Positions 1 to 10,805 of a DNA stretch of 10,805 nucleotides are shown in pieces; the first letter of the stretch is position 1, and each line of letters begins with the position of its first letter. Location: positions 1 to 10,805 of the forward strand of contig CAMWRB010000023.1 in the NCBI GenBank assembly GCA_947176545.1. Reading direction: 5' to 3'. The translations under genes were made by a program, and so were the position numbers. Source of the DNA: an uncultured Porphyromonadaceae bacterium. GTDB lineage: Bacteria; Bacteroidota; Bacteroidia; Bacteroidales; Muribaculaceae. The notes beneath the pieces were generated by a model. It saw nothing but the letters and a program-made list of their open reading frames with translations. It had not been told where the DNA came from and searched no databases.

Positions 1-35
1 AATTGAATGACGGGGATTTATTAAGTTCCAAGCGC

Positions 36-66
36 TTTGTAGTATCCGATTATTTTATTATATTTG
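36..66 (+). promoter_or_regulatory. Bacteroidetes-type promoter of the XRE regulator
   Basis: TTTG at 36-39 and TATATTTG at 59-66 are separated by exactly 19 bp. This fits the Bacteroidetes primary sigma consensus (TTTG, 19-21 bp, TAnnTTTG) at every defined position. The transcription start would fall near 73, leaving a leader of only about 15 nt before the ATG at 88. Both elements lie inside copies of a 10-bp direct repeat, so a repressor bound there would block the promoter. Confidence 0.75.
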
Positions 67-72
67 TAGTAT
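36..72 (+). repeat. Direct repeat TTTGTAGTAT, two copies
   Basis: The 10-mer TTTGTAGTAT occurs at 36-45 and at 63-72, 27 bp apart start to start. The first copy contains the -33 element and the second the end of the -7 element. The placement suggests a pair of operator half-sites for autoregulation by the HipB-like product of the following gene. That role is inferred; the repeat itself is exact. Confidence 0.5.
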
Positions 73-89
73 AATATTGGCAGTATTAT
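71..89 (+). promoter_or_regulatory. Inverted repeat over the predicted start site and ATG
   Basis: ATAATATT at 71-78 pairs with AGTATTAT at 82-89 across a 3-nt GGC spacer. Seven pairs are Watson-Crick and one is G-T. It spans the predicted transcription start and the first two bases of the ATG. It could be an operator for the XRE protein, or an RNA hairpin covering the start codon. AT-rich arms make the RNA form weak. Confidence 0.4.
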
Positions 90-504
90 GAATACGGCAG
101 GAAATAGTGATAATATATTATCTGTATTAGAAGGCTTTACGCTTGATAATCCTGATGACATCATGCAGCAGGTTGCCGAGAATTTTCGCAAACGTAGAGT
201 TGAGAAAAATATCACCCGACAGCGTATTGCCGAGCTGTCAGGAGTGCCGTTATCTTCAGTAGCACGTTTTGAGCAGAAAGGCCTTATTGCATTCGAATCG
301 CTAATTAAGCTTGCTATGGCTTTGGGATATACTTCTGAGATAAGGGCGCTGTTTTCTGCTCCAAAGTTTGACACAATGGAAGAACTCGACCTGATTCGTC
401 AGAAAAGAAATGACAAGAGGGCTTACCCTAAACGAAGTCGGGTGTGTAGGTTGGCCATGGCGATGGCGGCGACGGCTGCTTCCGAGCCTTTGTTGCCGAG
501 GTAG
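88..504 (+). CDS. HipB-like XRE-family helix-turn-helix regulator (orphan antitoxin)
   Basis: Small DNA-binding protein of the Cro/C1 (XRE) class, most like Bacteroidales HipB-type antitoxins that sit before hipA kinase-toxin genes. The HTH covers roughly residues 32-75, with RKRRVEKNITRQRIAELSG followed by a recognition segment ending in ARFE. An amphipathic helix-rich stretch follows, then the antitoxin-like tail FDTMEELDLIRQKR. Such proteins usually end soon after a basic KRA.. segment, about residues 109-116 here. The last 25 or so residues read antisense to the conserved C-terminal codons of ribH and look non-native. No hipA follows; the convergent neighbour is ribH, overlapping by 82 bp. 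The ATG at 88 is supported by the ideal promoter at 36-66. The gene looks more AT-rich than its neighbours, hinting at transfer. Function as a regulator is likely; antitoxin activity is inferred. Confidence 0.75.
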   Translation: MNTAGNSDNILSVLEGFTLDNPDDIMQQVAENFRKRRVEKNITRQRIAELSGVPLSSVARFEQKGLIAFESLIKLAMALGYTSEIRALFSAPKFDTMEELDLIRQKRNDKRAYPKRSRVCRLAMAMAATAASEPLLPR

Positions 505-923
505 CCGCCGGCACGGTCGCAGGCTTGCTGCAGGTTTTCGACGGTCAGGACGCCGAAGATGACCGGTGTCGTGCCGCGGGCATTGATTTCGGCCACACCT
601 TGTGCCGTGTGTTGGCATACATAGTCGAAGTGGGGAGTGTCGCCGCGTATGACGCATCCTATGACTATGACTGCATCAACTTCGGAATTGTTGATGACAG
701 CCGCTGCGGCATTGACAAGCTCGATAGTGCCCGGCACGTCATAGAGAGAGATATGTGAGTCATCCACTCCGGCATTATGCAGCACAGCGATTGCGCCGTC
801 GCGGAGCGTATGGGTGATGTCCGGATTCCATTCAGCCGTGATGATGGCACACCGGAATGTATCCTTGTCAATGATTGTCGGGATAGGCAGCTCGGCCCCG
901 TTTGTGTTGAGAACAGTCGCCAT
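423..923 (-). CDS. ribH: 6,7-dimethyl-8-ribityllumazine synthase (RibH)
   Basis: Penultimate enzyme of riboflavin synthesis. It condenses 5-amino-6-ribitylaminouracil with 3,4-dihydroxy-2-butanone 4-phosphate in the cytoplasm, usually as a pentamer or a 60-mer capsid. From the ATG at 923 the protein has 166 residues, normal for the family. Visible motifs are the substrate-binding AEWNPDI (30-36), PGTIEL (64-69), VIRGDTPHFDYV (91-102) with the proton-transfer His98, PVIFGVLTVENLQQA (120-134) and NKGSEAA (144-150). An in-frame ATG at 986 would add 21 residues unlike the family and run into the upstream gene, so 923 is preferred. The stop of the TPR-like gene lies 8 bp before this start, indicating co-transcription. 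It is the last gene of the minus-strand run and ends inside the 3' part of the XRE gene. Confidence 0.96.
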   Translation of the reverse strand: MATVLNTNGAELPIPTIIDKDTFRCAIITAEWNPDITHTLRDGAIAVLHNAGVDDSHISLYDVPGTIELVNAAAAVINNSEVDAVIVIGCVIRGDTPHFDYVCQHTAQGVAEINARGTTPVIFGVLTVENLQQACDRAGGYLGNKGSEAAVAAIAMANLHTRLRLG

Positions 924-931
924 ATCCGTAG

Positions 932-1780
932 TTATTTGATTTTGTTTTTGGCCGGACGGACTATGTTGTGCAGGAACGTCTTCCAACGTGGTTCCTGAGC
1001 CTTCTCGCCGTCTATAATCTCGAGGAGTGCGATGATTTCCTCTTCGAGTTCGATGGTTTCAAGAGAGATAGCGTGGGGGAGAACGGCCTGCAGGAGGCGT
1101 TTGGCGCGCGGTGTCATGCTCTTGACGCGCATCATGGTCTCGGCCATCTGAATAGTCATCTTAATCTCCTTGCGGGTGACCTTGCCGGTGCGTTTCTTGG
1201 AGAATTTGATAGCTTCGGCAAAGAATTTGAGAGCGGCCTTGTAGTCGCCGGCAGCTCCGAGCAATTCGGCGACCTTATGGAGTGAGTCGACGAGTCGGTC
1301 CGTAGCGGCTACGACACCGGAATTGACCTTTTCGTAGAGTGCATCGACAGCTATACGCTGCTTGATAAGGAGGTCCATCGCTTTCTTGCGCGAGCGCAGT
1401 ATTCTGGTAGACAGCTCCATAGCCAGAATATGATAGGGTCCGAAGCGGTCGGCGTCTTCACGCAGCAGGTTTTCAAGCACCTTGAAGAGCGTGTCGAGTT
1501 CCTTCTCGCTCTGCTTGTAGTCCTTGAGCAGGAAGTGTACCTCGGCAAGGTCGAAGAGGAGTGCAGCGAAGATGGCCTTGAACTCGACGTTGTCAAAATC
1601 AGAGAAAGCCCTGAGTTCGCGCATAGCGGTGACAATTCGTTCGAGCGCGTCGATGTATCTCTCTTCGGTGATGAGTTTGTGGGCTGTATCGCGTGCTTCG
1701 ATGACATTGTGGATTACTTCGGTATCCGGGCTCTTCTTGTCGAGTCGGTTGAGGTCAATCGGGAGTGGTATGTGGCTCAT
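932..1780 (-). CDS. TPR-like helical repeat protein
   Basis: A 282-residue, strongly helical and charged protein with no signal peptide or membrane segment, so probably cytoplasmic. Two stretches look like tetratricopeptide units: about residues 66-100 (FAALLFDLAEVHFLLKDYKQ) and 163-197 (LVDSLHKVAELLGAAGDYKA), each with the small-residue spacing and the xDYxx turn between helices. Further helices follow to residue 260, and the C-terminus is basic (RPAKNKIK). TPR proteins usually act as binding scaffolds; no partner can be read from the sequence. It lies 40 bp after the SIS isomerase gene and 8 bp before ribH. Bacteroides species often have a TPR gene before ribH, but as I recall that one is membrane-anchored, so this may be a replacement rather than an orthologue. 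Function is otherwise unknown. Confidence 0.8.
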   Translation of the reverse strand: MSHIPLPIDLNRLDKKSPDTEVIHNVIEARDTAHKLITEERYIDALERIVTAMRELRAFSDFDNVEFKAIFAALLFDLAEVHFLLKDYKQSEKELDTLFKVLENLLREDADRFGPYHILAMELSTRILRSRKKAMDLLIKQRIAVDALYEKVNSGVVAATDRLVDSLHKVAELLGAAGDYKAALKFFAEAIKFSKKRTGKVTRKEIKMTIQMAETMMRVKSMTPRAKRLLQAVLPHAISLETIELEEEIIALLEIIDGEKAQEPRWKTFLHNIVRPAKNKIK

Positions 1781-1820
1781 ATTATGTTGCTGAAAGGTAT
1801 GTTTATTCTATCTATCGGTG

Positions 1821-2432
1821 TTATTGTTTTTCGCAGGCTTTCCGTCCGGCTTTCTGTCCGAGGTATCCGCCGTGGTGACGTAGGGCGTACAGTTCGGCTG
1901 TGAAGCCGATACGTTTCATCACAGAGACGACGAGCAGGTCGCCAATGACGGTCATAACCGTAGTCGAGACTGTCGGTGTCAGTCCGAGCGGGCAGACTTC
2001 GGGCGCACCTCCGGTAAGCAGGAGCACATCGGCTGCCTCAGCCAGCGGACTTGTGCCGTCTCCGGTTATAACAATGACGGGGAGGTCAGTGTTCAACCGG
2101 TGGGCCAATTGGAGCACTTCGAGCACTTCGCGTGTCTTGCCCGAATTGGAAATGACAAGCATCAGGTCGTTGGGTTGCAGTATTCCCAAGTCGCCGTGTT
2201 GTGCCTCGGCGGGATGCAGGAAGACTGCCGGTGTGCCGGTCGAGCAGAAGGTTGTGGCAATATTCATGCCGATTTGACCGGCTTTACCCATGCCGGTGAC
2301 CACGAGCTTTCCACCGCGCTGATGGACACGTTCCACTATAAGCCGCACGGCATCATCGTAGGCGGCTGAGACAGGAATACCGCGAATGGCGTCGGCCTCG
2401 GCTTCGATTATGGATTTATAGTCAGCAGTCAT
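1821..2432 (-). CDS. kdsD: SIS-domain sugar-phosphate isomerase, KdsD/KpsF type without CBS domains
   Basis: Probable D-arabinose-5-phosphate isomerase. It would convert ribulose 5-phosphate to arabinose 5-phosphate, the precursor of Kdo in lipopolysaccharide or capsule. A single SIS domain fills the 203 residues: VVTGMGKAGQIG (44-55), the KpsF/GutQ signature HPAEAQHGDLG (73-83), NSGKT (96-100), CPLGLTPTVSTT (147-158) and a C-terminal HHGGYLG (186-192). E. coli KdsD and GutQ are about 320-330 residues with two C-terminal CBS domains; these are absent here. Short SIS-only forms are known in Bacteroidetes, so this is probably complete. Its ATG overlaps the stop of the thioesterase gene by 4 bp, suggesting translational coupling. 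Substrate assignment comes from family motifs; another phosphosugar is possible. Confidence 0.82.
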   Translation of the reverse strand: MTADYKSIIEAEADAIRGIPVSAAYDDAVRLIVERVHQRGGKLVVTGMGKAGQIGMNIATTFCSTGTPAVFLHPAEAQHGDLGILQPNDLMLVISNSGKTREVLEVLQLAHRLNTDLPVIVITGDGTSPLAEAADVLLLTGGAPEVCPLGLTPTVSTTVMTVIGDLLVVSVMKRIGFTAELYALRHHGGYLGQKAGRKACEKQ

Positions 2433-2872
2433 TTCTTCTCCAATAATGTGGGGTTATTTTCATAGTCTGCGAAACATTGCCGCCAATAGTCTGATACCGG
2501 TACGGACACCCCTTTGGCCGGGTCTATACACACCATGACGGTCTCACAGCGGGCCTTGACTTCGTCGGTATCTACATTGACCATCAGCTGGTCGAGTATG
2601 AAGCTCTTGTCGCCGACATGTTTGCAGCGCGTATAGATTTCTATATTCTCGCCGAAGCGCACCTGATTGATGTATGCACAATTGACATTGGCTATAACGC
2701 ATTCGACCTTTTGCCAGTCCATGTTGCCACGTCGTGTGGCCGCGAAATAGCGGGCTTTGGCCAGGTCGAAGAGTGAGAAATAGACCGTGTTGTTGAGGTG
2801 GCCGAGAATGTCGATGTCGTTAAATCTCAGCTGTACGGGTATGTGGTGAGTATATGGTTGGGTTTCTGTCAT
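2429..2872 (-). CDS. Acyl-CoA thioesterase, 4HBT hotdog family
   Basis: A 147-residue hotdog-fold protein likely to hydrolyse acyl-CoA or acyl-ACP thioesters in the cytoplasm. The family's active-site strand and helix are clear at residues 16-35: RFNDIDILGHLNNTVYFSLF matches the usual R-[YF]-x-D-x-D-x-x-G-H-x-N-N pattern, with Asp19 the probable catalytic residue. The rest shows the expected beta-rich layout (VNCAYINQVRFGENIEIYTRC and onward). Length is typical of the YbgC/FadM-like class. It lies 27 bp after the DUF721 gene and overlaps the SIS isomerase gene by 4 bp, so it belongs to the recF operon. The exact substrate cannot be told from sequence. Confidence 0.88.
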   Translation of the reverse strand: MTETQPYTHHIPVQLRFNDIDILGHLNNTVYFSLFDLAKARYFAATRRGNMDWQKVECVIANVNCAYINQVRFGENIEIYTRCKHVGDKSFILDQLMVNVDTDEVKARCETVMVCIDPAKGVSVPVSDYWRQCFADYENNPTLLEKK

Positions 2873-2899
2873 ATATGTGACTGATATTTCGTACTGTGA

Positions 2900-3193
2900 T
2901 TATGAGTAGAAGCGCAGCTGTCTGACGACCTCTTTGCCGGCCAGCCGGTTGAACTCGCGCATGATGCTTGTCCTGCTCATCGTGAGTTCCTGCCGCAGGG
3001 CGGCGTCGGGGACACGGATGCTCATCTTGCCGCCGTTGATGTATGGTTTCAGGCAACGGTCGGCTATTTCGGGTCCGACAATGTGAGGCCAGAAGTCAGC
3101 GGCTCTCAGCTCGTCAAAGTGCTGACTCATCTGAGAGTCCTGGATAGCGAGCCGCAGTATGTCTCCTATAGGTGTCGGTTCAAGTCGTTGCAT
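2900..3193 (-). CDS. DUF721/DciA-like protein
   Basis: A 97-residue protein of the DUF721 family. Some members, such as DciA, help load the replicative helicase DnaB in bacteria lacking DnaC. Visible family features are an N-terminal helix around IGDILRLAIQ, the central W-x-x-[IV]-V-G-P-E-I-A motif (residues 35-44), and a C-terminal half with VPDAALRQEL, a helix and a final strand LRFYS. Bacteroidetes members are short like this one and lie beside recF. The ATG at 3193 overlaps the 3' end of recF by 14 bp, so the two are translationally coupled. A role in helicase loading follows from the family and is not proven for short Bacteroidetes forms. Confidence 0.85.
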   Translation of the reverse strand: MQRLEPTPIGDILRLAIQDSQMSQHFDELRAADFWPHIVGPEIADRCLKPYINGGKMSIRVPDAALRQELTMSRTSIMREFNRLAGKEVVRQLRFYS

Positions 3194-4298
3194 CGAGGTG
3201 TTCTATAAGTGAGAAGTGTCCGTTGCTGACCTCGAAGAGGCGGGCGTCGTGCTTGATATGGCGCGTTATGTCGTCGAGGTGTGTGCGGTTGGTATCGGTG
3301 ACAAAGATTTGGGAGAAGTTGTCCGACTCGCTGACTATGTGGATAATCCGCGCTACACGGTCGGCATCGAGTTTGTCGAAGATGTCATCGAGGAGCAGGA
3401 GGGGTGTTATTCCGCCGGCCTGCTTTAGAAAGTCGAAGATGGCAAGTCGCAGAGCGATATTGTATGTCTTGATTTGTCCCTGGCTGCCGAGACGTCGCAT
3501 CGAATATTGTCCCAGCCCCATTGCTATGTCATCGCGATGTATGCCTTGCGATGAGAATCCGAGAGCGATATCCTTGGCGCGGCATTCGGCGAGCACCTGC
3601 TGCAGCGACGCGTCGTTGAGCACGCTGCGGTATGTCATGGTGGCCTGCTCGTCATTGCCGGCGATACGCTGATAATATAGTTCGAGCGAGGGGGCAATCT
3701 CATCAATCCATTGCCGGCGGGCTGAATGGATAGCCTGAGCGGCCTCCTGCATGCCGTTCTCCACCGATTCATACAGGAGATTGTCGCGTACTCCGGCACG
3801 CAGCATACGGTTGCGCGACTCAAGAGCCTTGTTATAGCGGATTAGGTGTGCAAGATATCCTTTGTCCGCCTGGGAGATGACCATATCCATAAGCCGTCTG
3901 CGTCCGTCGCCCGGACCGATGACGAGCATAGCGTCGGCCGGAGTGACACAGACCAGCGGGAAGCGGCCTATATGTTGTGATATGCGTTCATACTCCTTGC
4001 CGTTGCGTTTGAGCGATTTCCCCTTTCCCTTGATGAGACCGGCCGAAATTTTCTCCTCGCGGTCGCCTTCCATTATGAATGTTCCCTTGACCGACATCAG
4101 CGACTCCCCGTGACGGATGAGCTGAGACTCCGGTATTGACGACATCCCGCGTGCCAGGCACAACAGGTGTATGGCTTCGAGCAGATTGCTTTTGCCCATG
4201 CCGTTGAGTCCCAAAAAGCAGTTGAGACCCGGTGACATGGTCAGGGATGCGTCCGCGATATTCTTGAAGTTGAGTATGTCGATGGATTGGAGTCTCAT
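3180..4298 (-). CDS. recF: DNA replication/repair protein RecF
   Basis: SMC-like ATPase that binds gapped DNA and, with RecO and RecR, loads RecA on single-stranded gaps. The 372-residue length is normal. Walker A is GLNGMGKS (30-37), the ABC-type signature is LGSQGQIKT (270-278), and Walker B with D-loop is PLLLLDDIFDKLD (299-311), followed by IFVTDTN (331-337). RecF-specific patches include FKNI near the N-terminus and TPADAMLVIGPGDGRRRLMD (119-138). The family usually has SQGQQ[KR] in the signature; here the second Q of the pair is Ile. It starts 73 bp after upp, across a GTC-phased repeat, and overlaps the DUF721 gene by 14 bp. It is separated here from dnaA and dnaN, its neighbours in many other phyla. 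Confidence 0.97.
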   Translation of the reverse strand: MRLQSIDILNFKNIADASLTMSPGLNCFLGLNGMGKSNLLEAIHLLCLARGMSSIPESQLIRHGESLMSVKGTFIMEGDREEKISAGLIKGKGKSLKRNGKEYERISQHIGRFPLVCVTPADAMLVIGPGDGRRRLMDMVISQADKGYLAHLIRYNKALESRNRMLRAGVRDNLLYESVENGMQEAAQAIHSARRQWIDEIAPSLELYYQRIAGNDEQATMTYRSVLNDASLQQVLAECRAKDIALGFSSQGIHRDDIAMGLGQYSMRRLGSQGQIKTYNIALRLAIFDFLKQAGGITPLLLLDDIFDKLDADRVARIIHIVSESDNFSQIFVTDTNRTHLDDITRHIKHDARLFEVSNGHFSLIEHLDATT

Positions 4299-4300
4299 TC

Positions 4301-4370
4301 GGGGTCTTCAGGTCTTTGAGGTCGTTGGGTCTCCGGGCTTTTAGAGTCGCTAAGGTCTTTAAAGTCGGGG
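4301..4370 (-). repeat. Degenerate 8-9 bp GTC-phased intergenic repeat
   Basis: The whole upp-recF gap consists of a degenerate unit close to GGTCTTTRA (plus-strand reading). GTC begins at 4304, 4312, 4321, 4329, 4346, 4355 and 4364, with GGC in place of GTC at 4336. Steps are 8 or 9 bp. No TAnnTTTG-type promoter is visible in it on the minus strand. The periodicity resembles the GTCTGAC arrays at 9697 and 10451, though the consensus differs. Function unknown; it may shape transcription or folding between upp and recF. Confidence 0.55.
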
Positions 4371-4371
4371 G

Positions 4372-5037
4372 TTACTCTTTCTCTCCGTATGCGAGGTCAC
4401 CGGCGTCGCCGAGTCCGGGCACGATATAGGAGTGGGCATTGACTTCATCGTCGATGGCTCCTATCCAGAGGGTCGTCTTGTCGGCCGGGAAGTGGGTACA
4501 TACATACTCGACGCTCTGACGTGAAGCTATGACAGAGGCAACATGAATGTGAGCCGGTGTGCCCTTGCTGAGGAGCGCCTTGTATGCCAGCTCCATAGAG
4601 GAACCGGTAGCAAGCATCGGGTCTACGAGTATCAGCGTTTTGCCCTCAATCGAGGGGGAGGCGAGATACTCTATGAGCACATCAAACGAGTCCCCTTTCT
4701 CCTTATAACGGCGGTATGCGCTGACAAAGGCATTCTCGGCCTTATCGAAATAGTTGAGAAATCCGTGATGGAACGGGAGTCCGGCGCGGAGTATGGTGGC
4801 CAGAACGATTCTGTCGGAGATGTCCTGACAGATACACTTTCCGAGAGGTGTCTCAATCTCAGTGTCGTGATAGTTGAGGCGTCTGGATATTTCATAGGCC
4901 ATTATCTGTCCGATACGGTCCAGGTTGGCACGAAACCTCATCGGGTCTTTCTGGATATGTATGTTGCGGAGTTCCAGCATGTAGCGACTCACGAGCGATG
5001 GTGAGGCGGCAAAGTTGATTATCTCGATATTTTCCAT
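4372..5037 (-). CDS. upp: Uracil phosphoribosyltransferase
   Basis: Pyrimidine salvage enzyme that joins uracil to PRPP to give UMP in the cytoplasm. The 221 residues are normal for the family. The PRPP-binding loop LVDPMLATGSSM is at 137-148, the conserved ILRAGLPF at 82-89, and the uracil-binding C-terminal stretch YIVPGLGDAGDLAYG at 204-218. It lies 46 bp after the ribF-glycosyltransferase gene, and the gap to recF holds a phased short repeat. No clear promoter of its own is visible, so transcription from upstream is likely. Confidence 0.97.
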   Translation of the reverse strand: MENIEIINFAASPSLVSRYMLELRNIHIQKDPMRFRANLDRIGQIMAYEISRRLNYHDTEIETPLGKCICQDISDRIVLATILRAGLPFHHGFLNYFDKAENAFVSAYRRYKEKGDSFDVLIEYLASPSIEGKTLILVDPMLATGSSMELAYKALLSKGTPAHIHVASVIASRQSVEYVCTHFPADKTTLWIGAIDDEVNAHSYIVPGLGDAGDLAYGEKE

Positions 5038-5083
5038 TCTTTTATCTCGTTGTTGAGCTGTGATTATCTCAGGAGCTGCGGGT

Positions 5084-6913
5084 TTATGATTGAGGGTGCA
5101 AGATAGTAAAAAAAATTGTAATGGTCAATAGTTTGAGTCTCATTCTGCGGCTAACCCCCCTGACATTCCAGATATGTCTTGTAGCCCGTATTTCACGGGC
5201 TATCCTGCTAATGTCGTGTCGGCCGGCTCCGGATTTCCTTGCGATGTCATATACCCGCAGAGCGTCGTCGGCAAGTCGGCGTCCTATCTCTATACGGACC
5301 TCGGGCGTATCGAGTCCGTGGTCAAGTGCGAGCGTCAGGAGTTTGGCATCACAAGCTATATATCCGGTCATAGCCGGTCGCCAACGTCGTGAGATTGCAT
5401 CTGCATTGCCCGTGTGATAATAGAACGTGCAGGGAGCGGTACACACTCTGCGGGAGGTCAGATATAGCCGGCGTGTGTCGTACTCATCATCATTGAGATA
5501 GGTAGTACTGACACCAAGCTGACGCATCATCTCGGTGCGGAACATAGCGAATCCGTTGATTTGCCAGTTGAGCGAGAGGATAAACGCCTGATGTCCCGTA
5601 AGACATATTCCCGCAGAAGGTGTGGGATATTGTACACCCTGCAGGGGAGTGCCGTCCCGTCGGCTCCAGCTGCGCATGAGCGGCAATACCGCATCGATAT
5701 CTTCCGAACTTTGTGCGACCTCGAGCGCGACAGCAAAATAGTCGGCACTCAGCAGGTCATCCTGCGACATATATTGGGTGTAGAGTCCGCGGGCATGTGG
5801 GAGTGCGAACTTGATGCCGTATGTCGCAAATCCCTCATTAGGTTTGGTATATGCACGGATGCGGCTGTCTCTGCGGGCGTAGTCGGATATGATGGTGAGA
5901 CTATCATCTGTAGAGCTATCATCCACCAGCAATGCCTCCCAGTCGGTACGCGTCTGAGCCATAAGGGAATGAATGGTCTCGTGCAGGTACTTTGACCCGT
6001 TGTAGACCGGAATTATGACACTCACGGCCGGCTTCCGGGCCAGTATGGCTCGCATGGCTGATATGTCAAGGTCGATTTGAGCCTTCAGTTTATCAAGCGT
6101 ATCAAAGGTTTGCTCATCCCGTATTTTTGAGACAAATAGGAGTTCGGTAGTCGCGTCGTAGAGGTTACCCTGCCATCCGGGGATGTGAGCCTCGATGCGC
6201 AGCCGGTGAGTGAATGAGTCATCGAGCGACGGACGGTGGCCCACATTGACCACACACTGCCGGTATTCGCCGTCGGGAATTCTGATATATGCCGCATATA
6301 CACCGTTGGCGGGTATGACCATTCCGTTTGCCGGTTGCAGGTTGGCGGTCGGTATTCCGATTGTTGAACCGATTCTGTCGCCATGATTGATGGTGCCCGT
6401 CAGTGTATAGGGTCGGCCCAGAATATCGGCGGCCGTCTGCATATCTCCGAGTGAGACGGCTTTTCTCACCGCCGTGGAGGAACACCCCGGTACGGCCGGA
6501 GCAATGACCACCTCAATACCGGCCTCACGTCCGATACGTACGTAGTCATCGGGTGAGAGCGACCGTCCGTCGCGTCCGAAGGTGTTGTCATAGCCGAGCA
6601 CGAGAACACGGACATCATACTCATCGCGAAGACGTTCAAACCACTGTCGTGCGGTGAGATTACACAAATCCGGAGTGAAATCGAGCATCACAGTCTCCGC
6701 TCCACAGTGTGAGAGGAGGTGCTTTTTCTGTTCCGGAGTCGATAGAAACCGGGGTGCTCTCTCGGGAGCAATCACTTGGAGGGGGTGATTGCTGAATGTG
6801 ATGACCAGAGGTGACAGATTCCGGCTTCCGGCAAGAGTCATAAGGGTGTCGAGCACCATTTTATGTCCCCGGTGGCAACCGTCGAATGTTCCTACGGTAG
6901 CGATGCGGCTCAT
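5084..6913 (-). CDS. ribF: RibF (riboflavin kinase/FAD synthetase) fused to a GT2 glycosyltransferase
   Basis: One uninterrupted 609-codon frame encodes two proteins normally separate. Residues 1-294 form a complete RibF, which phosphorylates riboflavin to FMN and adenylylates FMN to FAD. Visible are the nucleotidyltransferase motif GTFDGCHRGH (8-17), SSTAVRKA (145-152), the kinase motifs TGTINHGDRIG (172-182) and IPTANL (187-192), GVYAAYI (204-210) and the catalytic-region RIEAHI (239-244). RibF families end here, at about 300 residues. Residues 296-609 are a GT-A family 2 glycosyltransferase: AVSVIIPVYNG (296-306), VDDSSTDDS (330-338), the metal-binding-type SQDD (383-386) and NDDEYDTRR (474-482), with a basic, mildly hydrophobic C-terminus and no clear transmembrane helix. 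The join has almost no linker. The start overlaps the HAD gene stop by 4 bp. Met287 (6055) could serve as an internal start for a separate transferase. The sugar donor and acceptor are unknown. Confidence 0.92.
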   Translation of the reverse strand: MSRIATVGTFDGCHRGHKMVLDTLMTLAGSRNLSPLVITFSNHPLQVIAPERAPRFLSTPEQKKHLLSHCGAETVMLDFTPDLCNLTARQWFERLRDEYDVRVLVLGYDNTFGRDGRSLSPDDYVRIGREAGIEVVIAPAVPGCSSTAVRKAVSLGDMQTAADILGRPYTLTGTINHGDRIGSTIGIPTANLQPANGMVIPANGVYAAYIRIPDGEYRQCVVNVGHRPSLDDSFTHRLRIEAHIPGWQGNLYDATTELLFVSKIRDEQTFDTLDKLKAQIDLDISAMRAILARKPAVSVIIPVYNGSKYLHETIHSLMAQTRTDWEALLVDDSSTDDSLTIISDYARRDSRIRAYTKPNEGFATYGIKFALPHARGLYTQYMSQDDLLSADYFAVALEVAQSSEDIDAVLPLMRSWSRRDGTPLQGVQYPTPSAGICLTGHQAFILSLNWQINGFAMFRTEMMRQLGVSTTYLNDDEYDTRRLYLTSRRVCTAPCTFYYHTGNADAISRRWRPAMTGYIACDAKLLTLALDHGLDTPEVRIEIGRRLADDALRVYDIARKSGAGRHDISRIAREIRATRHIWNVRGVSRRMRLKLLTITIFFTILHPQS

Positions 6914-7644
6914 TTCGGCTCAATGGGGTTGATGAGAGGAAGCCGTGATGTCACGGCCAGCATGTCGTCGCTATCGGTGTCTCCGATTCTGACAGCCTGC
7001 ATTCCGACCGAACGAGCCGCCTGACAGTTGTCCTCAGAGTCATCGAGCATCAGTGTCTCCTCCGGGTTAAGACGGTATCTGTCGAGAAGGATGCGGAATA
7101 TGGCAGGGTCCGGTTTGCATGTCAGCTCCTGAAAACTTGCCACGATGCCGTCGAAGTAGTCGTTGATGGTGAGTCCCTCTCCGCGGAATGCATTGGTTAT
7201 CCAGCCGTTATACATCACCGGATTGGTGTTGGAGAGTACGAAAGTCCGGTATCCGGCGCGCCTGATATATCTGAGCCGAGCAAGTCGTTCTGTCGGTATG
7301 TCTATGAGAAATCGGTCGAAAGCGCAGGTGATTTGAGCATCGGTAGCACCCGGACATCTTGAGCGAATCAAGTCAAAGAATTCCCCGGCCTCGACACGTC
7401 CCGTCTCCAGTCCCAGAAAGGGTTCTTCCTGACGGTACAGGCCCAGCAGCGTGTCAGCCTCGGCGAGACCGAGCTCCTGAAGTGCAGCGACAGCGCGATT
7501 ACGGTCGAGGTTAATGACCACCCCGCCGAGGTCAAAAATGATATTCTTAATTCCCGATATGACAGCCATCGGACTTTCTATATAGAAATCGGCGGAGACC
7601 TTCTGAGGAGGTACGAATTCGCCGGTCGGCATATTAATCTGCAT
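6910..7644 (-). CDS. HAD-superfamily phosphatase (YihX-like subclass)
   Basis: Cytoplasmic Mg-dependent phosphatase with a Rossmann-like HAD core. Numbered from the ATG at 7644, motif I is FDLGGV with nucleophile Asp38; Gly replaces the second Asp, as in the YihX subclass. Motif II is VLSNTN with Ser138, motif III is CKPDP with Lys177, and motif IV is LDDSEDN with Asp201 and Asp202. Residues between motifs I and II form the usual helical cap. The first 25 residues have no counterpart in typical members, so the ATG at 7569 (about 219 residues) is a serious alternative start. The stop overlaps the ribF start by 4 bp, so the two are coupled. An action on a flavin-pathway phosphate such as the pyrimidine precursor of lumazine, or FMN, is attractive but is inferred from neighbourhood only. 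Confidence 0.88.
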   Translation of the reverse strand: MQINMPTGEFVPPQKVSADFYIESPMAVISGIKNIIFDLGGVVINLDRNRAVAALQELGLAEADTLLGLYRQEEPFLGLETGRVEAGEFFDLIRSRCPGATDAQITCAFDRFLIDIPTERLARLRYIRRAGYRTFVLSNTNPVMYNGWITNAFRGEGLTINDYFDGIVASFQELTCKPDPAIFRILLDRYRLNPEETLMLDDSEDNCQAARSVGMQAVRIGDTDSDDMLAVTSRLPLINPIEPK

Positions 7645-7672
7645 TTATGACAAAGCTCTATGATTACGGTTG

Positions 7673-7680
7673 CAAAAATA
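7673..7680 (-). promoter_or_regulatory. Possible -7 element for the HAD-ribF operon
   Basis: On the minus strand this reads TATTTTTG, a full match to TAnnTTTG, in an AT-rich stretch 28 bp before the ATG at 7644. No TTTG lies 19-21 bp upstream, so only half of the promoter is supported. This is the only promoter-like site near the head of the nine-gene minus-strand run. Confidence 0.35.
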
Positions 7681-7778
7681 ATAAAAAAAATAATATCGCG
7701 AGTCAGCTGCACCCTGCCGGATTGGAGGGATTAGCTTATTCTCATTATTACCGTGAGTATGGGATTACGTGTATAAAT

Positions 7779-7818
7779 AAAGCAGAGTCGTATCCATGAC
7801 AAGAAACGACTCCGCTTT
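7779..7818 (-). terminator. Rho-independent-type terminator after slyD
   Basis: AAAGCAGAGTCGT (7779-7791) and ACGACTCCGCTTT (7806-7818) pair over 13 positions with one A-C mismatch around a 14-nt loop. On the minus strand the hairpin is followed by a T-rich tail (TTTATTTAT), as needed to end slyD transcripts 44 bp past its stop. The plus-strand tail is also T-rich but no plus-strand gene precedes it. Confidence 0.7.
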
Positions 7819-7862
7819 TACTATATTCACCTAATATATTTACCTGTATCAAACATTTACGA

Positions 7863-8459
7863 TTAGTGGCATCCTCCGCAGCACTTGCCGTCGTCAGTGT
7901 GGCCTTCACCACCGCAGCAACCGCCTTCATGCTCGCCACAGCCACCTCCGCAGCATCCGCCACAACCTTCGGCACCCTTTATCTCCTCTGGTGTGGCATC
8001 GCGCACCTCAATGACTTCACCGGCATATGTCACTGTCTTGCCGGCAAACGGGTGGTTAAAGTCCATCTTGATGTGCTTGTCGGTGATTTCAAGCACTTTA
8101 CCCTGTATGCGCAACCCTTCGGCTGTCATCATCGGCAATAATGCACCGACCATAACCTCCTCGGCCAGCTTACCGTCCCGCTCGAAAATCTGACGCTCAA
8201 GAGTAACTACATTTTCTTCGTAACGGTCACCGAACGCAGCTGCCGGTGGTAAAGTGATTTCAAAACGGTCACCTGTACCCAGACCATCGAGAGCCGCAAT
8301 AAGACCGGGCACCACGTCCTGACTCACACCATAGATTAACTCATCGGGAGCATCGGCGGGAACTTCAAAAAGCAATGCACCGTCTGTGGCATCGGTAAGC
8401 TTATAGGTATAACTCACATACTTGTTCGGGCCTACTTTCTCTTCTTTATTTTCACTCAT
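7863..8459 (-). CDS. slyD: SlyD-type FKBP peptidyl-prolyl cis-trans isomerase
   Basis: Cytoplasmic prolyl isomerase and chaperone with a metal-binding tail. From the ATG at 8459 the protein has 198 residues. The FKBP part covers about 12-75 and 137-155, interrupted by an insert-in-flap chaperone domain (about 82-135). The SlyD hallmark NHPFAGKTVTY is at 135-145. The last 37 residues hold nine Cys and three His in CC, CGGC and EHE patterns, fitting nickel or zinc binding as in E. coli SlyD, which supplies nickel to hydrogenase; no hydrogenase or urease genes are nearby. Starts at 8519 and 8477 exist in frame, but 8459 has AAAGGA about 10 nt upstream and matches the family N-terminus. A terminator follows at 7779-7818. 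pfkA ends 160 bp upstream. Confidence 0.92.
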   Translation of the reverse strand: MSENKEEKVGPNKYVSYTYKLTDATDGALLFEVPADAPDELIYGVSQDVVPGLIAALDGLGTGDRFEITLPPAAAFGDRYEENVVTLERQIFERDGKLAEEVMVGALLPMMTAEGLRIQGKVLEITDKHIKMDFNHPFAGKTVTYAGEVIEVRDATPEEIKGAEGCGGCCGGGCGEHEGGCCGGEGHTDDGKCCGGCH

Positions 8460-8619
8460 TATATCTTTTCCTTTCATGTATGGGATGTCATACTGCCGTG
8501 CGTGAGGAATATCACTCACACTCTTTTCTGACCGTCAGTATTTACATCCGGTGATTATATTGACTTTTCTATATCCTTTCTATGCAAAAATCATGCCAAT
8601 CATCCGTATGCTACACGGA

Positions 8620-9600
8620 TTATATGGACAGGCGGCGCAATGTGGCCAGCAGTTCGCGGTTTATCGGCTTGTCATTCTTGATGGCCTTGGTAAAGGGCAC
8701 ATACACAATTTCATCATTCTTGATACCAATCATGACATTACGCTGGTCGTCCTGCAGGGCATCAATCGCCGCTGAACCCATTCGGGAAGCCAAGATACGG
8801 TCAAAGGCAGTCGGACTACCGCCTCTTTGCAGATGACCCAGAATCGATACACGCACGTCATATCCGGGATATTCAGCCTTCACACGTTCGGCAAGCCCCA
8901 TAGCACCACCTGTGATTGGTGACTCCGCTACAAGAACAATCGAGGAGTTCTTCGACTTGCGGAATCCGTTCTGAATCAGCTCTGCGAGCTGGTCAACCTG
9001 AGTTGAAATCTCAGGAATGATAGCGGCCTCAGCGCCGGAAGCTATAGCACCGTTGAGCGCGAGGAATCCTGCATCACGACCCATCACCTCGATAAAGAAC
9101 AGGCGCTCGTGGGAAGTCGCTGTGTCGCGTATCTTATCGACGCAATCCATAATTGTATTGAGGGCTGTGTCATAACCTATTGTAGAGTCCGTACCATACA
9201 GGTCATTGTCTATCGTGCCCGGCAGACCAATGATAGGATATGAGTACTCATTGGCAAATATGCGTGCTCCCGTCAGAGAGCCGTCACCACCGATTACCAC
9301 AAGCGCATCTATCTCATGACGACGCAATACGTCATAGGCACACTGACGGCCCTCCGGAGTCTGAAACTCCGCGCAACGGGCTGTCTTCAATATTGTGCCC
9401 CCTCGCTGAATGATGTTGGAGACATTCTGAGTCGAAAACTCCTGAATCTCATCTGTGATAAGGCCACGATAGCCTCGGTAGATACCATATACACGATAAC
9501 CCGCAAATATTCCCGCACGCGTCACCGCACGGATAGCTGCATTCATACCCGGAGCATCACCGCCGGAAGTCAGAATACCGATTGATTTTATATTTGTCAT
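8620..9600 (-). CDS. pfkA: ATP-dependent 6-phosphofructokinase
   Basis: Committing step of glycolysis: fructose 6-phosphate plus ATP gives fructose 1,6-bisphosphate. The 326 residues match bacterial PfkA. The N-terminal ATP-binding [15 protein letters not shown] is at 10-24, GGDGS at 104-108 and LPGTIDND at 126-133, with catalytic Asp131. Gly at both GGDG and PGTIDND, where pyrophosphate enzymes have Asp and Lys, marks this as ATP-dependent. MGRDAG (173-178) and [14 protein letters not shown] (255-268) bind substrate and effector. It is probably transcribed alone: the upstream gap carries a 9-mer repeat array and no perfect promoter, and 160 bp separate it from slyD. A short hairpin at 8602-8620 with T residues further on may end the transcript, but it is weak. 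Confidence 0.97.
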
Positions 9601-9696
9601 AAATGTGGATGATATTTATAAATATTCTCTTATAGTTAAAATGAAATTTATACTCAAATTGTTTGCCTGCCGCGATTTTTACTCCCCATACAATTG

Positions 9697-9732
9697 GTCT
9701 GACACGTCTGAAAAGTCTGACAAGTCAGAATA
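9697..9732 (+). repeat. Array of 9-bp GTCTGACAN repeats, left of the four helix bundle gene
   Basis: Four units in exact 9-bp phase: GTCTGACAC (9697), GTCTGAAAA (9706), GTCTGACAA (9715) and GTCAGAATA (9724). TCTGAC and GTCAGA at 9716-9729 form a 6-bp inverted repeat with an AA spacer. The array lies 24 bp past the stop of the four helix bundle gene and about 100 bp before pfkA. Its GACACGTCTGA (9701-9711) recurs exactly at 10455-10465 on the other side of the gene. No spacers are present, so it is not a CRISPR. Confidence 0.75.
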
Positions 9733-9755
9733 TCAGAATCATTGTGTCAGTATAA

Positions 9756-10322
9756 CTATTTAAAATCCCTTTGACCGGTTCTATATTCAAGCCGTGCACG
9801 GGTCATTCTCTCTCTTATACCACCCTGCTCTAAAAACATCTTCTGCTGTCTTTCAATCAATCGCCTTAGCATGTATGTTGCCTGGTGTATCAAAGTGATA
9901 CATAAATTGCAAATTTCTTCATCGTTTATACGCGGCAACAACTCTGAATAACTCTGTATGACAGAATTACTTCGGCAATATTCTCTCAACCGGTGATAAC
10001 GCGAATTCTCTTTGCTCCACAATGATAGGTTTCTGACTCTTAGATAATCCTCATAATCAATTAGAAGCTCTTCAAGACTGGCTTTAGCAACATTTGTCAG
10101 TTTTATTTCTGTCTCCGTAGATGTTGTTGCAGACATACTCCCCTCGGCAATATTCTGTTTGCCTGAGCGGGCTGCCTGAATCATCTGGTCTATTGTTCGG
10201 TCACGAATATCAAGGTAATGATGAGCAAAATAGAACGTGATGTCATATACAACTTCGGCTATCCGGTAAACCCTAAGGTTTCTATAGCCACCCTTATTCT
10301 TAAGAAATGTATTCGCGTCCAT
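9756..10322 (-). CDS. Four helix bundle suffix domain protein (S23/Avd-like)
   Basis: A 188-residue helical protein. The N-terminal part (about 12-98) belongs to the four helix bundle family related to S23, which is encoded in 23S rRNA intervening sequences, and to Avd of diversity-generating retroelements. The signature QMIQAARSGKQNIAEGS is at 46-62, and NLRVYRIAEVVYDIT precedes it. From about residue 99 comes the extra 'suffix' part found in a Bacteroidales subfamily, ending in FLEQGGIRERMTRARLEYR (163-181). The protein is basic and lacks a signal peptide or membrane helix; nucleic-acid binding is plausible but unproven for this subgroup. It stands alone between pfkA and tRNA genes, and both sides carry 9-bp GTCTGAC arrays. 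A promoter-like site is at 10343-10375. No reverse transcriptase or template repeat is present, so it is not part of a retroelement here. Confidence 0.88.
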   Translation of the reverse strand: MDANTFLKNKGGYRNLRVYRIAEVVYDITFYFAHHYLDIRDRTIDQMIQAARSGKQNIAEGSMSATTSTETEIKLTNVAKASLEELLIDYEDYLRVRNLSLWSKENSRYHRLREYCRSNSVIQSYSELLPRINDEEICNLCITLIHQATYMLRRLIERQQKMFLEQGGIRERMTRARLEYRTGQRDFK

Positions 10323-10342
10323 ATCCCTGATACTAATATCTT

Positions 10343-10375
10343 CAAAAATAATGAAATTTATTGATACAAGGCAAC
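10343..10375 (-). promoter_or_regulatory. Probable promoter of the four helix bundle gene
   Basis: On the minus strand TATTTTTG (10350-10343) matches the -7 consensus. GTTG (10375-10372) lies 21 bp upstream, three of four positions of TTTG. The -7 element is 20 bp before the ATG at 10322, giving a very short leader like that of the XRE gene. Confidence 0.45.
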
Positions 10376-10450
10376 TAATTGGGAGAATTTACCACATATT
10401 CTATAAATTTCAGTGTAATTTCAATTTTATACGGAAACCTATCTGTGATA

Positions 10451-10486
10451 ATCAGACACGTCTGACGCATCAGACGTGTCTGACAT
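10451..10486. repeat. 9-bp repeat array forming a perfect 14-bp inverted repeat
   Basis: Four 9-bp units in phase: ATCAGACAC (10451), GTCTGACGC (10460), ATCAGACGT (10469) and GTCTGACAT (10478). Because units alternate in orientation, 10452-10465 (TCAGACACGTCTGA) and 10470-10483 (TCAGACGTGTCTGA) are perfect reverse complements around a CGCA loop. Each arm is itself a 6-2-6 palindrome. There is no T-tract after it on either strand, so it is not a standard terminator. The unit matches the array at 9697-9732, so the pair brackets the four helix bundle gene. Confidence 0.85.
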
Positions 10487-10554
10487 TGCTAATCCCTTCA
10501 ATCCGGCAGGGCGTAGCTGACTCGCGATATTAGTTTTTGTCGGATTTTATATTT

Positions 10555-10576
10555 GCACTTTTTTCGCACTTTTTTC
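10555..10576 (+). repeat. 11-bp tandem duplication upstream of the tRNA promoter
   Basis: GCACTTTTTTC occurs twice head-to-tail at 10555-10565 and 10566-10576, ending 18 bp before the -33 element. T-tracts in helical phase like these could act as an UP-element-like activator of a strong stable-RNA promoter. That role is inferred. Confidence 0.6.
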
Positions 10577-10594
10577 AATAAATGTCGGAATAAT

Positions 10595-10626
10595 TTTGTG
10601 GGATTGAAAAAAAAGTATTACTTTTG
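10595..10626 (+). promoter_or_regulatory. Promoter of the tRNA-Tyr/tRNA-Gly operon
   Basis: TTTG (10595-10598) and TACTTTTG (10619-10626) are 20 bp apart, a full match to the Bacteroidetes sigma consensus. Transcription would begin near 10633, about 26 nt before the mature tRNA-Tyr 5' end. The -33 TTTG is also the end of a second -7-like TAATTTTG (10591-10598), which has no matching -33. Confidence 0.75.
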
Positions 10627-10630
10627 TGAT

Positions 10631-10651
10631 GTCATTGTTGAGAACGATGAC
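10631..10651 (+). other. Hairpin in the tRNA precursor leader
   Basis: GTCATTGTT (10631-10639) pairs with AACGATGAC (10643-10651) over nine positions, one a G-U wobble, around a GAG loop. It begins about where transcription is predicted to start and ends 7 nt before tRNA-Tyr. It would cap the 5' leader that RNase P removes. No T-tract follows, so it is not a terminator. Confidence 0.5.
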
Positions 10652-10658
10652 ACCAAAA

Positions 10659-10741
10659 GGGCGAATACCAGAGTGGCCAAATGGGGCAGACTGTAAATCT
10701 GCTGGTTTATACCTTCGGTGGTTCGAATCCATCTTCGCCCA
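10659..10741 (+). tRNA. tRNA-Tyr (anticodon GTA)
   Basis: An 83-nt class II tRNA. Acceptor arms GGGCGAA (10659-10665) and TTCGCCC (10734-10740) pair fully, with discriminator A10741. The anticodon stem GCAGA/TCTGC encloses loop CTGTAAA with GTA at 10693-10695. A long variable arm (from about 10703) and the T-arm with TTCGAAT follow. CCA is not encoded. tRNA-Gly starts 14 bp downstream in the same transcript. Confidence 0.97.
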
Positions 10742-10755
10742 CTATTTTCTCTTCT

Positions 10756-10805
10756 GCGGAAGTAGCTCAGTCGATAGAGCATCAGCCTTCCAAGCTGAGG
10801 GTCGC
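10756..10805 (+). tRNA. tRNA-Gly (anticodon TCC), 3' end cut by the window
   Basis: Acceptor 5' strand GCGGAAG (10756-10762), then TA, and a standard D-arm (GCTCAG to GAGC). The anticodon stem TCAGC/GCTGA (10782-10786 and 10794-10798) encloses loop CTTCCAA with TCC at 10789-10791. The variable loop begins before the window ends; the T-arm and 3' acceptor strand are not seen. Spacing from tRNA-Tyr implies one precursor. Confidence 0.93.

Follow-up and report, generated by a model that had tools for sequence, protein, structure and literature searches.

The window analysed here, positions 1 to 10,805 (in nucleotides, nt) of contig CAMWRB010000023.1 from an uncultured Porphyromonadaceae bacterium, carries a gene in which a complete RibF is followed, without a linker between them, by a complete family 2 glycosyltransferase (GT2, about residues 295-609). 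A single ATG-to-stop reading frame at 5084..6913 on the minus strand encodes this 609 amino acid (aa) protein. We find that the fusion is a genuine in-frame gene and a conserved, lineage-specific architecture. It probably represents a neighbour fusion of two working enzymes (three activities), in which a captured GT2 provides co-expression and a tether and no shared chemistry is needed. The first-pass annotation had proposed an in-frame fusion at these coordinates, which holds; it named no strand, and the gene lies on the minus strand.

The frame begins with ATG and ends with a stop codon at 5084-5086; the plus-strand frame over the same interval contains 15 stops. Both halves exceed their Pfam cut-offs, and the motifs quoted in the first-pass annotation are present. 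The RibF part (residues 1-291; 6041..6913, minus strand) contains a flavin mononucleotide (FMN) adenylyltransferase domain at residues 4-141 (FAD_syn, PF06574; 101.5 bits for a cut-off of 27), then a riboflavin kinase domain at residues 165-291 (Flavokinase, PF01687; 123.3 bits for a cut-off of 19.6). The NCBIfam model TIGR00083 (ribF) passes with 188.8 for a threshold of 184.35, its match stopping at residue 291. Further RibF equivalog models (PRK05627.1-1 to 1-6 and, weakly, NF045965) gave matches below their cut-offs, for example 234.1 for 295. After a junction placed by alignment and AlphaFold2 model at residues 292-296 (6026..6040, minus), the GT2 part (residues 297-609; 5087..6025, minus) was delimited by Pfam, model and fold search. 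It includes a GT-A domain with DDSSTD and SQDD motifs, D476-E477 and C-terminal helices, and matches Glycos_transf_2 (PF00535) at residues 298-465 with 80.3 bits for a cut-off of 23.3. The AlphaFold2 model of the whole protein, obtained from a 37-row alignment, has a predicted local distance difference test score (pLDDT) of 90.2 and a predicted template modelling score (pTM) of 0.86.

We compared residues 200-450 to about 5.8 billion clustered proteins at E 1e-3 and obtained 74 matches, among which five are fusions of the same kind (P0001-P0005). Four are full length and share 79% (P0002), 62% (P0003), 62% (P0004) and 61% (P0005) identity with the window protein; P0001, an NCBI fragment of 545 aa, is 99% identical and crosses the junction. 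Residues 280-310 are gap-free in all six aligned rows, and the five full-length rows agree at 290 of the 609 columns. P0003 is identical to a protein of genome G364, from the same genus as the window genome (G000), and the genes flanking the fused locus are conserved in G364. The window genome is a fragmented draft, 60% complete, which would favour a stop codon masked by an artefact of sequencing, binning or assembly, a refutation that the first-pass annotation had itself envisaged. Such an artefact is excluded with near certainty because the junction recurs in independent fused records, with identities of 61-99%, full-length fusions and the 99% fragment alike, and because the flanks are conserved in G364. 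A profile search with the fusion rows, which scored the best 7999 candidates, revealed no further member of the window kind among the best 120 of 441 matches.

Between the window and G364, the proportion of nonsynonymous differences (pN) is 0.25 in the RibF half and 0.29 in the GT2 half, and that of synonymous differences (pS) is 0.69 and 0.79, respectively, near saturation. Since pN is well under pS in both, the sequences argue for purifying selection on both halves, hence for both being used. Unusually fast evolution of RibF after fusion was also considered and is unsupported: the RibF halves of window and G364 are 66% identical at a RecF identity of 86%, the sole pair that close in this comparison, and the next closest pair shows 53% at 76%. 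The first-pass annotation knew of no established RibF-GT2 protein, and our literature searches for such a fusion likewise showed none among the papers listed. The NCBI sequences exist under one-sided names, either RibF or glycosyltransferase (P0003 is a 'riboflavin biosynthesis protein RibF'), so that automated annotation hides the fusion.

The earlier claim that no linker is present agrees with the model, in which the final RibF helix is predicted to span residues 273-292 and the opening strand of GT2 to follow at 297-303, with a block pLDDT of 94-95 around the junction. To this we can add a survey of the window's family, covering one RibF locus in each of 149 genomes (drawn from a 297-genome sample without G364, to which G364 was added). 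G364 is fused and the other 148 loci are unfused; the C-terminal ends of the unfused RibFs coincide with the junction, their quartiles falling at window residues 292-298 (overall range 287-330). Slightly upstream lies Met287 (codon at 6053..6055, minus), which may be an internal start of GT2, either ancient or still in use, and which is present in 5/5 full-length fusions and in 0/148 unfused family RibFs, 123 of which have Ala, Thr or Val at the matching residue. We may therefore hypothesize that one gene yields two products, a full-length RibF-GT2 and a free GT2 initiated at Met287 or released by cleavage at the junction. A start at Met287 would produce a 323-aa GT2, the length of standalone GT2s. 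However, the fusions are of one ancestry, and with 290 of 609 columns invariant in the full-length rows, among them 7 of the 15 Met residues that the window protein contains, a lone conserved Met is weak evidence. The 20 nt upstream of Met287 show no AT excess over gene starts (AT fraction 0.50 in the window and 0.55 in G364, for 0.45-0.80 at ten gene starts), and synonymous sites around the junction give no sign of constraint, 10 of 15 same-residue codons at positions 272-300 differing synonymously between window and G364. The junction is also predicted to be an unbroken folded structure. We thus regard two products as unlikely, yet Met287 may be the ancient start codon of the GT2 gene.

The RibF half is probably a bifunctional riboflavin kinase/flavin adenine dinucleotide (FAD) synthetase, judging from its domains and from residues backed by mutagenesis. 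In the Corynebacterium ammoniagenes FAD synthetase (FADS), a role is reported as confirmed by mutagenesis for H28, H31, S164, T165, T208, N210 and E268 (PMC2573891). Their counterparts in 5/5 fusions are H14, H17, S146, T147, T189, N191 and E241, position 147 being S instead of T in P0002, P0004 and P0005. The window genome and G364 each contain one flavokinase match, the fused gene itself.

The modelled GT2 half is complete, with the GT-A elements and C-terminal helices extending to residue 605. All six fusion rows keep the DDSS-x-D motif (with T or Q at 335), SQDD and D476-E477 unchanged, and the S and two D of SQDD are also invariant in a 25-row alignment of the GT2 subfamily. A fold search with this half returned GT-A folds, including that of the TarS/TarP/RmlT kind with its C-terminal helices. 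D385, D386 and D476-E477 pair with TarS D93, D94 and E177-D178, and S383 stands in for D91. TarS is reported to act very selectively on its polymer, and its R75 and D91 are described as essential by mutation; in the printed profile alignment these two residues fall opposite I367 and S383, so that neither is kept in the window GT2. The fold score of CgT equals those of the ribitol-phosphate transferases, and the CgT record names no ribitol-phosphate acceptor; we therefore dropped fold likeness as proof of such an acceptor. The C-terminal helix at residues 589-605 (5099..5149, minus), basic then hydrophobic by hydropathy and model, is a possible peripheral membrane contact. The nearest standalone relatives of this GT2 are about 40% identical over their length.

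We then analyzed the distribution of the fusion, keeping in mind that many of the genomes counted are drafts, so that absence is uncertain for any one genome. Within the genus, 24 of 111 genomes have a GT2 match at E 1e-20, and in two of them, G000 and G364, the match lies within a RibF frame. In the order, 6 of 393 genomes match the GT2 query at E 1e-30, the window's genome included. A RibF-like frame is absent from the stretches around 35/35 other GT2 loci and is present in three positive-control loci from G000 and G364. With the full protein as query, all 297 genomes of the family sample give some match, and the window's is the only full-length one among the matches listed. A contig scan with a single fusion protein gave no match; an alignment query gave five loci, one of which is a fusion identical to that of G364. 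No donor of the GT2 was found: with the standalone relative P0077 as query, 397 family genomes hold only two copies at E 1e-35, both fused.

The neighbourhood suggests how the fusion may have formed. On the minus strand, the fused gene is preceded by a HAD-family hydrolase (6910..7644) that overlaps the ribF start by 4 nt, and is followed, 46 nt downstream, by upp (4372..5037), which encodes uracil phosphoribosyltransferase; ribH, for lumazine synthase (423..986, minus), belongs to the same gene block. The block HAD-ribF-upp-recF-dciA-thioesterase-SIS-TPR-ribH recurs, whole or in part, in relatives. We compared 25 stretches, two of which are G364 itself; among the remaining 23 unfused stretches, ten have upp after ribF on the same strand with no intervening GT2 (in this count L076 has another small open reading frame (ORF) in between, and L066 and L077 probably represent one contig). 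At 121 of 147 family loci, ribF is preceded on its own strand by a HAD homologue, at a distance of at most 400 nt. Because upp follows ribF without a GT2 in relatives, and because unfused RibFs end at the junction, we infer that the region between these two genes took in a GT2 gene, which became joined to RibF at its natural end.

In the window's family, ribF and GT2 genes are not generally associated, since only two of the 148 unfused loci have a GT2 near ribF (GT2s were sought with a home-made profile at E 1e-6, and at least 1 kb of downstream sequence was available at 139 of the 149 loci). In G024 (L133:1374-3277), ribF and a GT2 of another subtype lie on the same strand with a 4-nt overlap. 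In G050 (L069:6836-7837), whose RibF is the nearest to that of the window among the 148 unfused surveyed (52%), a GT2 lies 205 nt from ribF on the opposite strand and belongs to the subfamily of a second RibF-GT2 fusion described below (44% identity to P0052). No separate gene of the window's GT2 kind was found beside ribF at these 148 loci. According to the first-pass annotation, a locus at which close relatives all keep ribF and GT2 as individual genes would be evidence against a fusion; none was found, G024 alone having a same-strand adjacent GT2, of another subtype.

Seven of the 74 matches (P0029, P0032, P0052 and P0061-P0064) are RibF-GT2 proteins of a second kind, 665-703 aa in length. 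Both halves pass the Pfam cut-offs in P0052, P0029 and P0032, the three scanned. With P0052 as query at E 1e-100, 39 of 395 phylum genomes match, 35 over the GT2 half only and four over the whole length in one frame; the latter (G791, G818, G912 and G932) all belong to family f125. In a 45-row GT2 tree, built without the GT2 paralogues of the window genome and including three rows of unusual amino-acid make-up (window, P0002 and P0120), the five GT2 domains of the window kind form one group (fork support 99/99), and a branch of 3.36 changes per column divides the two kinds. By these sequence comparisons, the second fusion is of independent origin. In G916, also of family f125 (L098:1480-3490), ribF and GT2 are separate genes in different frames, with a 32-nt overlap if the first ATG is the start. 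The G916 GT2 groups next to the fused second-kind GT2s (support 92/80, not a starred fork; 95/83 for the fused group), and its overlapping genes are likely to represent a stage before the second fusion. The first-pass suggestion of an operon pair that lost a stop codon is thus well supported for the independent fusion, in another family; for the window's own fusion, no intermediate of the same kind was seen.

Other partners are joined to RibF as well. In G043 (L117:1519-3054), of the same family, a 511-aa ORF has an O-methyltransferase (PF01596, 136.8 bits) before a full RibF; in P0222 and P0223, RibF follows a HAD domain that is 33% identical to the window HAD; and P0246 (437 aa) consists of RibF then an archease domain (PF01951, 100.7 bits). 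RibF therefore tolerates fusion with different neighbours at both ends. Since it repeatedly fuses with GT2, HAD, O-methyltransferase and archease, opportunistic neighbour fusion is favoured over one specific link.

According to this neighbour-fusion scenario, a GT2 gene of a kind otherwise not seen in the sampled family would have entered between ribF and upp in the ancestor of a small clade. The insertion would have taken place in the block HAD-ribF-upp-recF-dciA, and the RibF reading frame would have been extended, at its natural end, into that of GT2. The cell would obtain its FMN and FAD from the RibF half, and the GT2 half would move a sugar from a nucleotide donor to some envelope or glycan acceptor; the fusion would give co-expression and a tether, making shared chemistry unnecessary. 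The fusion itself, its conservation and the constraint on both halves are observed; the capture, the enzymatic activities, the acceptor class and the absence of coupling are inferred. Several points weigh against this scenario. No capture intermediate was found. The GT2 half is assumed to be an active enzyme, and it differs from TarS at D91 and R75. A second RibF may exist elsewhere in both fused genomes, which are 60% (window) and 82% (G364) complete. Two independent RibF-GT2 fusions could reflect selection for the pair. Finally, the high pTM of the model, together with a junction that has neither gap nor linker, hints that the halves are fixed relative to each other, beyond what a passive tether requires.

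These last two points bring up functional coupling, whereby the GT2 part would place FAD synthase at the membrane, or the GT2 would modify a flavin or its precursor (for example, by glycosylating the ribityl-phosphate of FMN). However, CgT scores as high as the ribitol-phosphate transferases, so that the fold alone says little; the two essential TarS residues are replaced by I367 and S383, and TarS itself is described as highly specific for its polymer. Furthermore, a same-strand adjacent GT2 occurs at only 1/148 unfused family RibF loci and is of a different subtype, and a search of the flavin-glycoside literature gave only a passing mention of 'glycosylated riboflavin', in plant work. We hold coupling to be improbable, and the flavin-controlled or membrane-proximal glycosylation put forward in the first-pass annotation is speculative. 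A still more specific form was considered because of the likeness between the GT2 fold and that of ribitol-phosphate transferases, FMN having a ribityl phosphate of its own: by this analogy, the fusion would be a dedicated flavin-glycoside synthase, its GT2 glycosylating a ribityl-phosphate acceptor made or bound by RibF (FMN, riboflavin or a precursor). This appears very improbable, and the neighbour fusion of two working enzymes is the reading we prefer.

Here, an essential cofactor enzyme has taken on a domain architecture new to it. The two domain families were brought together on two independent occasions, and the surprise lies mainly in these two occurrences with different GT2s. They offer a natural test of 'Rosetta Stone' logic, which opposes fusion as a functional link to fusion as an accident of neighbourhood. 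Should the halves act together, this would point to a hitherto unknown flavin modification or to membrane-tethered flavin synthesis.

Among the other window features, the HAD hydrolase at 6910-7644 is, by analogy, a candidate riboflavin-pathway phosphatase or FMN phosphatase: the ARAPDP phosphatases of Bacillus subtilis, Escherichia coli and Arabidopsis thaliana are reported to be HAD enzymes, and the Aquifex one is not (PMC12051542). The window also contains a tRNA-Tyr (gta) gene at 10659-10742 (plus strand) and, at 9756-10322 (minus strand), an ORF of 188 aa with no Pfam match at 1e-5. By eye, we take the latter to have the look of a four-helix bundle.

In known RibF structures, those of C. 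ammoniagenes FADS (2x0k/5fnz) and Thermotoga maritima RibF (1mrz/1s4m), the chain ends after RibF, whereas the last RibF helix of the window protein runs straight into GT2. The second RibF-GT2 fusion has the same domain order, RibF then GT2, but a GT2 of another subfamily and a linker; this linker is variable in sequence and is modelled with low confidence. The model concerned (pTM 0.51, from a 26-row alignment with few GT2s of its subfamily) is weaker overall, so that the linker accounts for only part of the low pTM. On the glycosyltransferase side, CgT/GalT1 (5hea), TarS, TarP and RmlT share 15-21% identity with the window GT2, which is fused to RibF, unlike any of them; relative to TarS, it has SQDD for DxDD, D-E for E-D at the base position, and does not keep R75. 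Known flavin-cofactor enzymes with an extra fused enzyme domain resemble the window protein in being fusions, but their extra domain is flavin-processing, whereas a glycosyltransferase has no established link to flavins.
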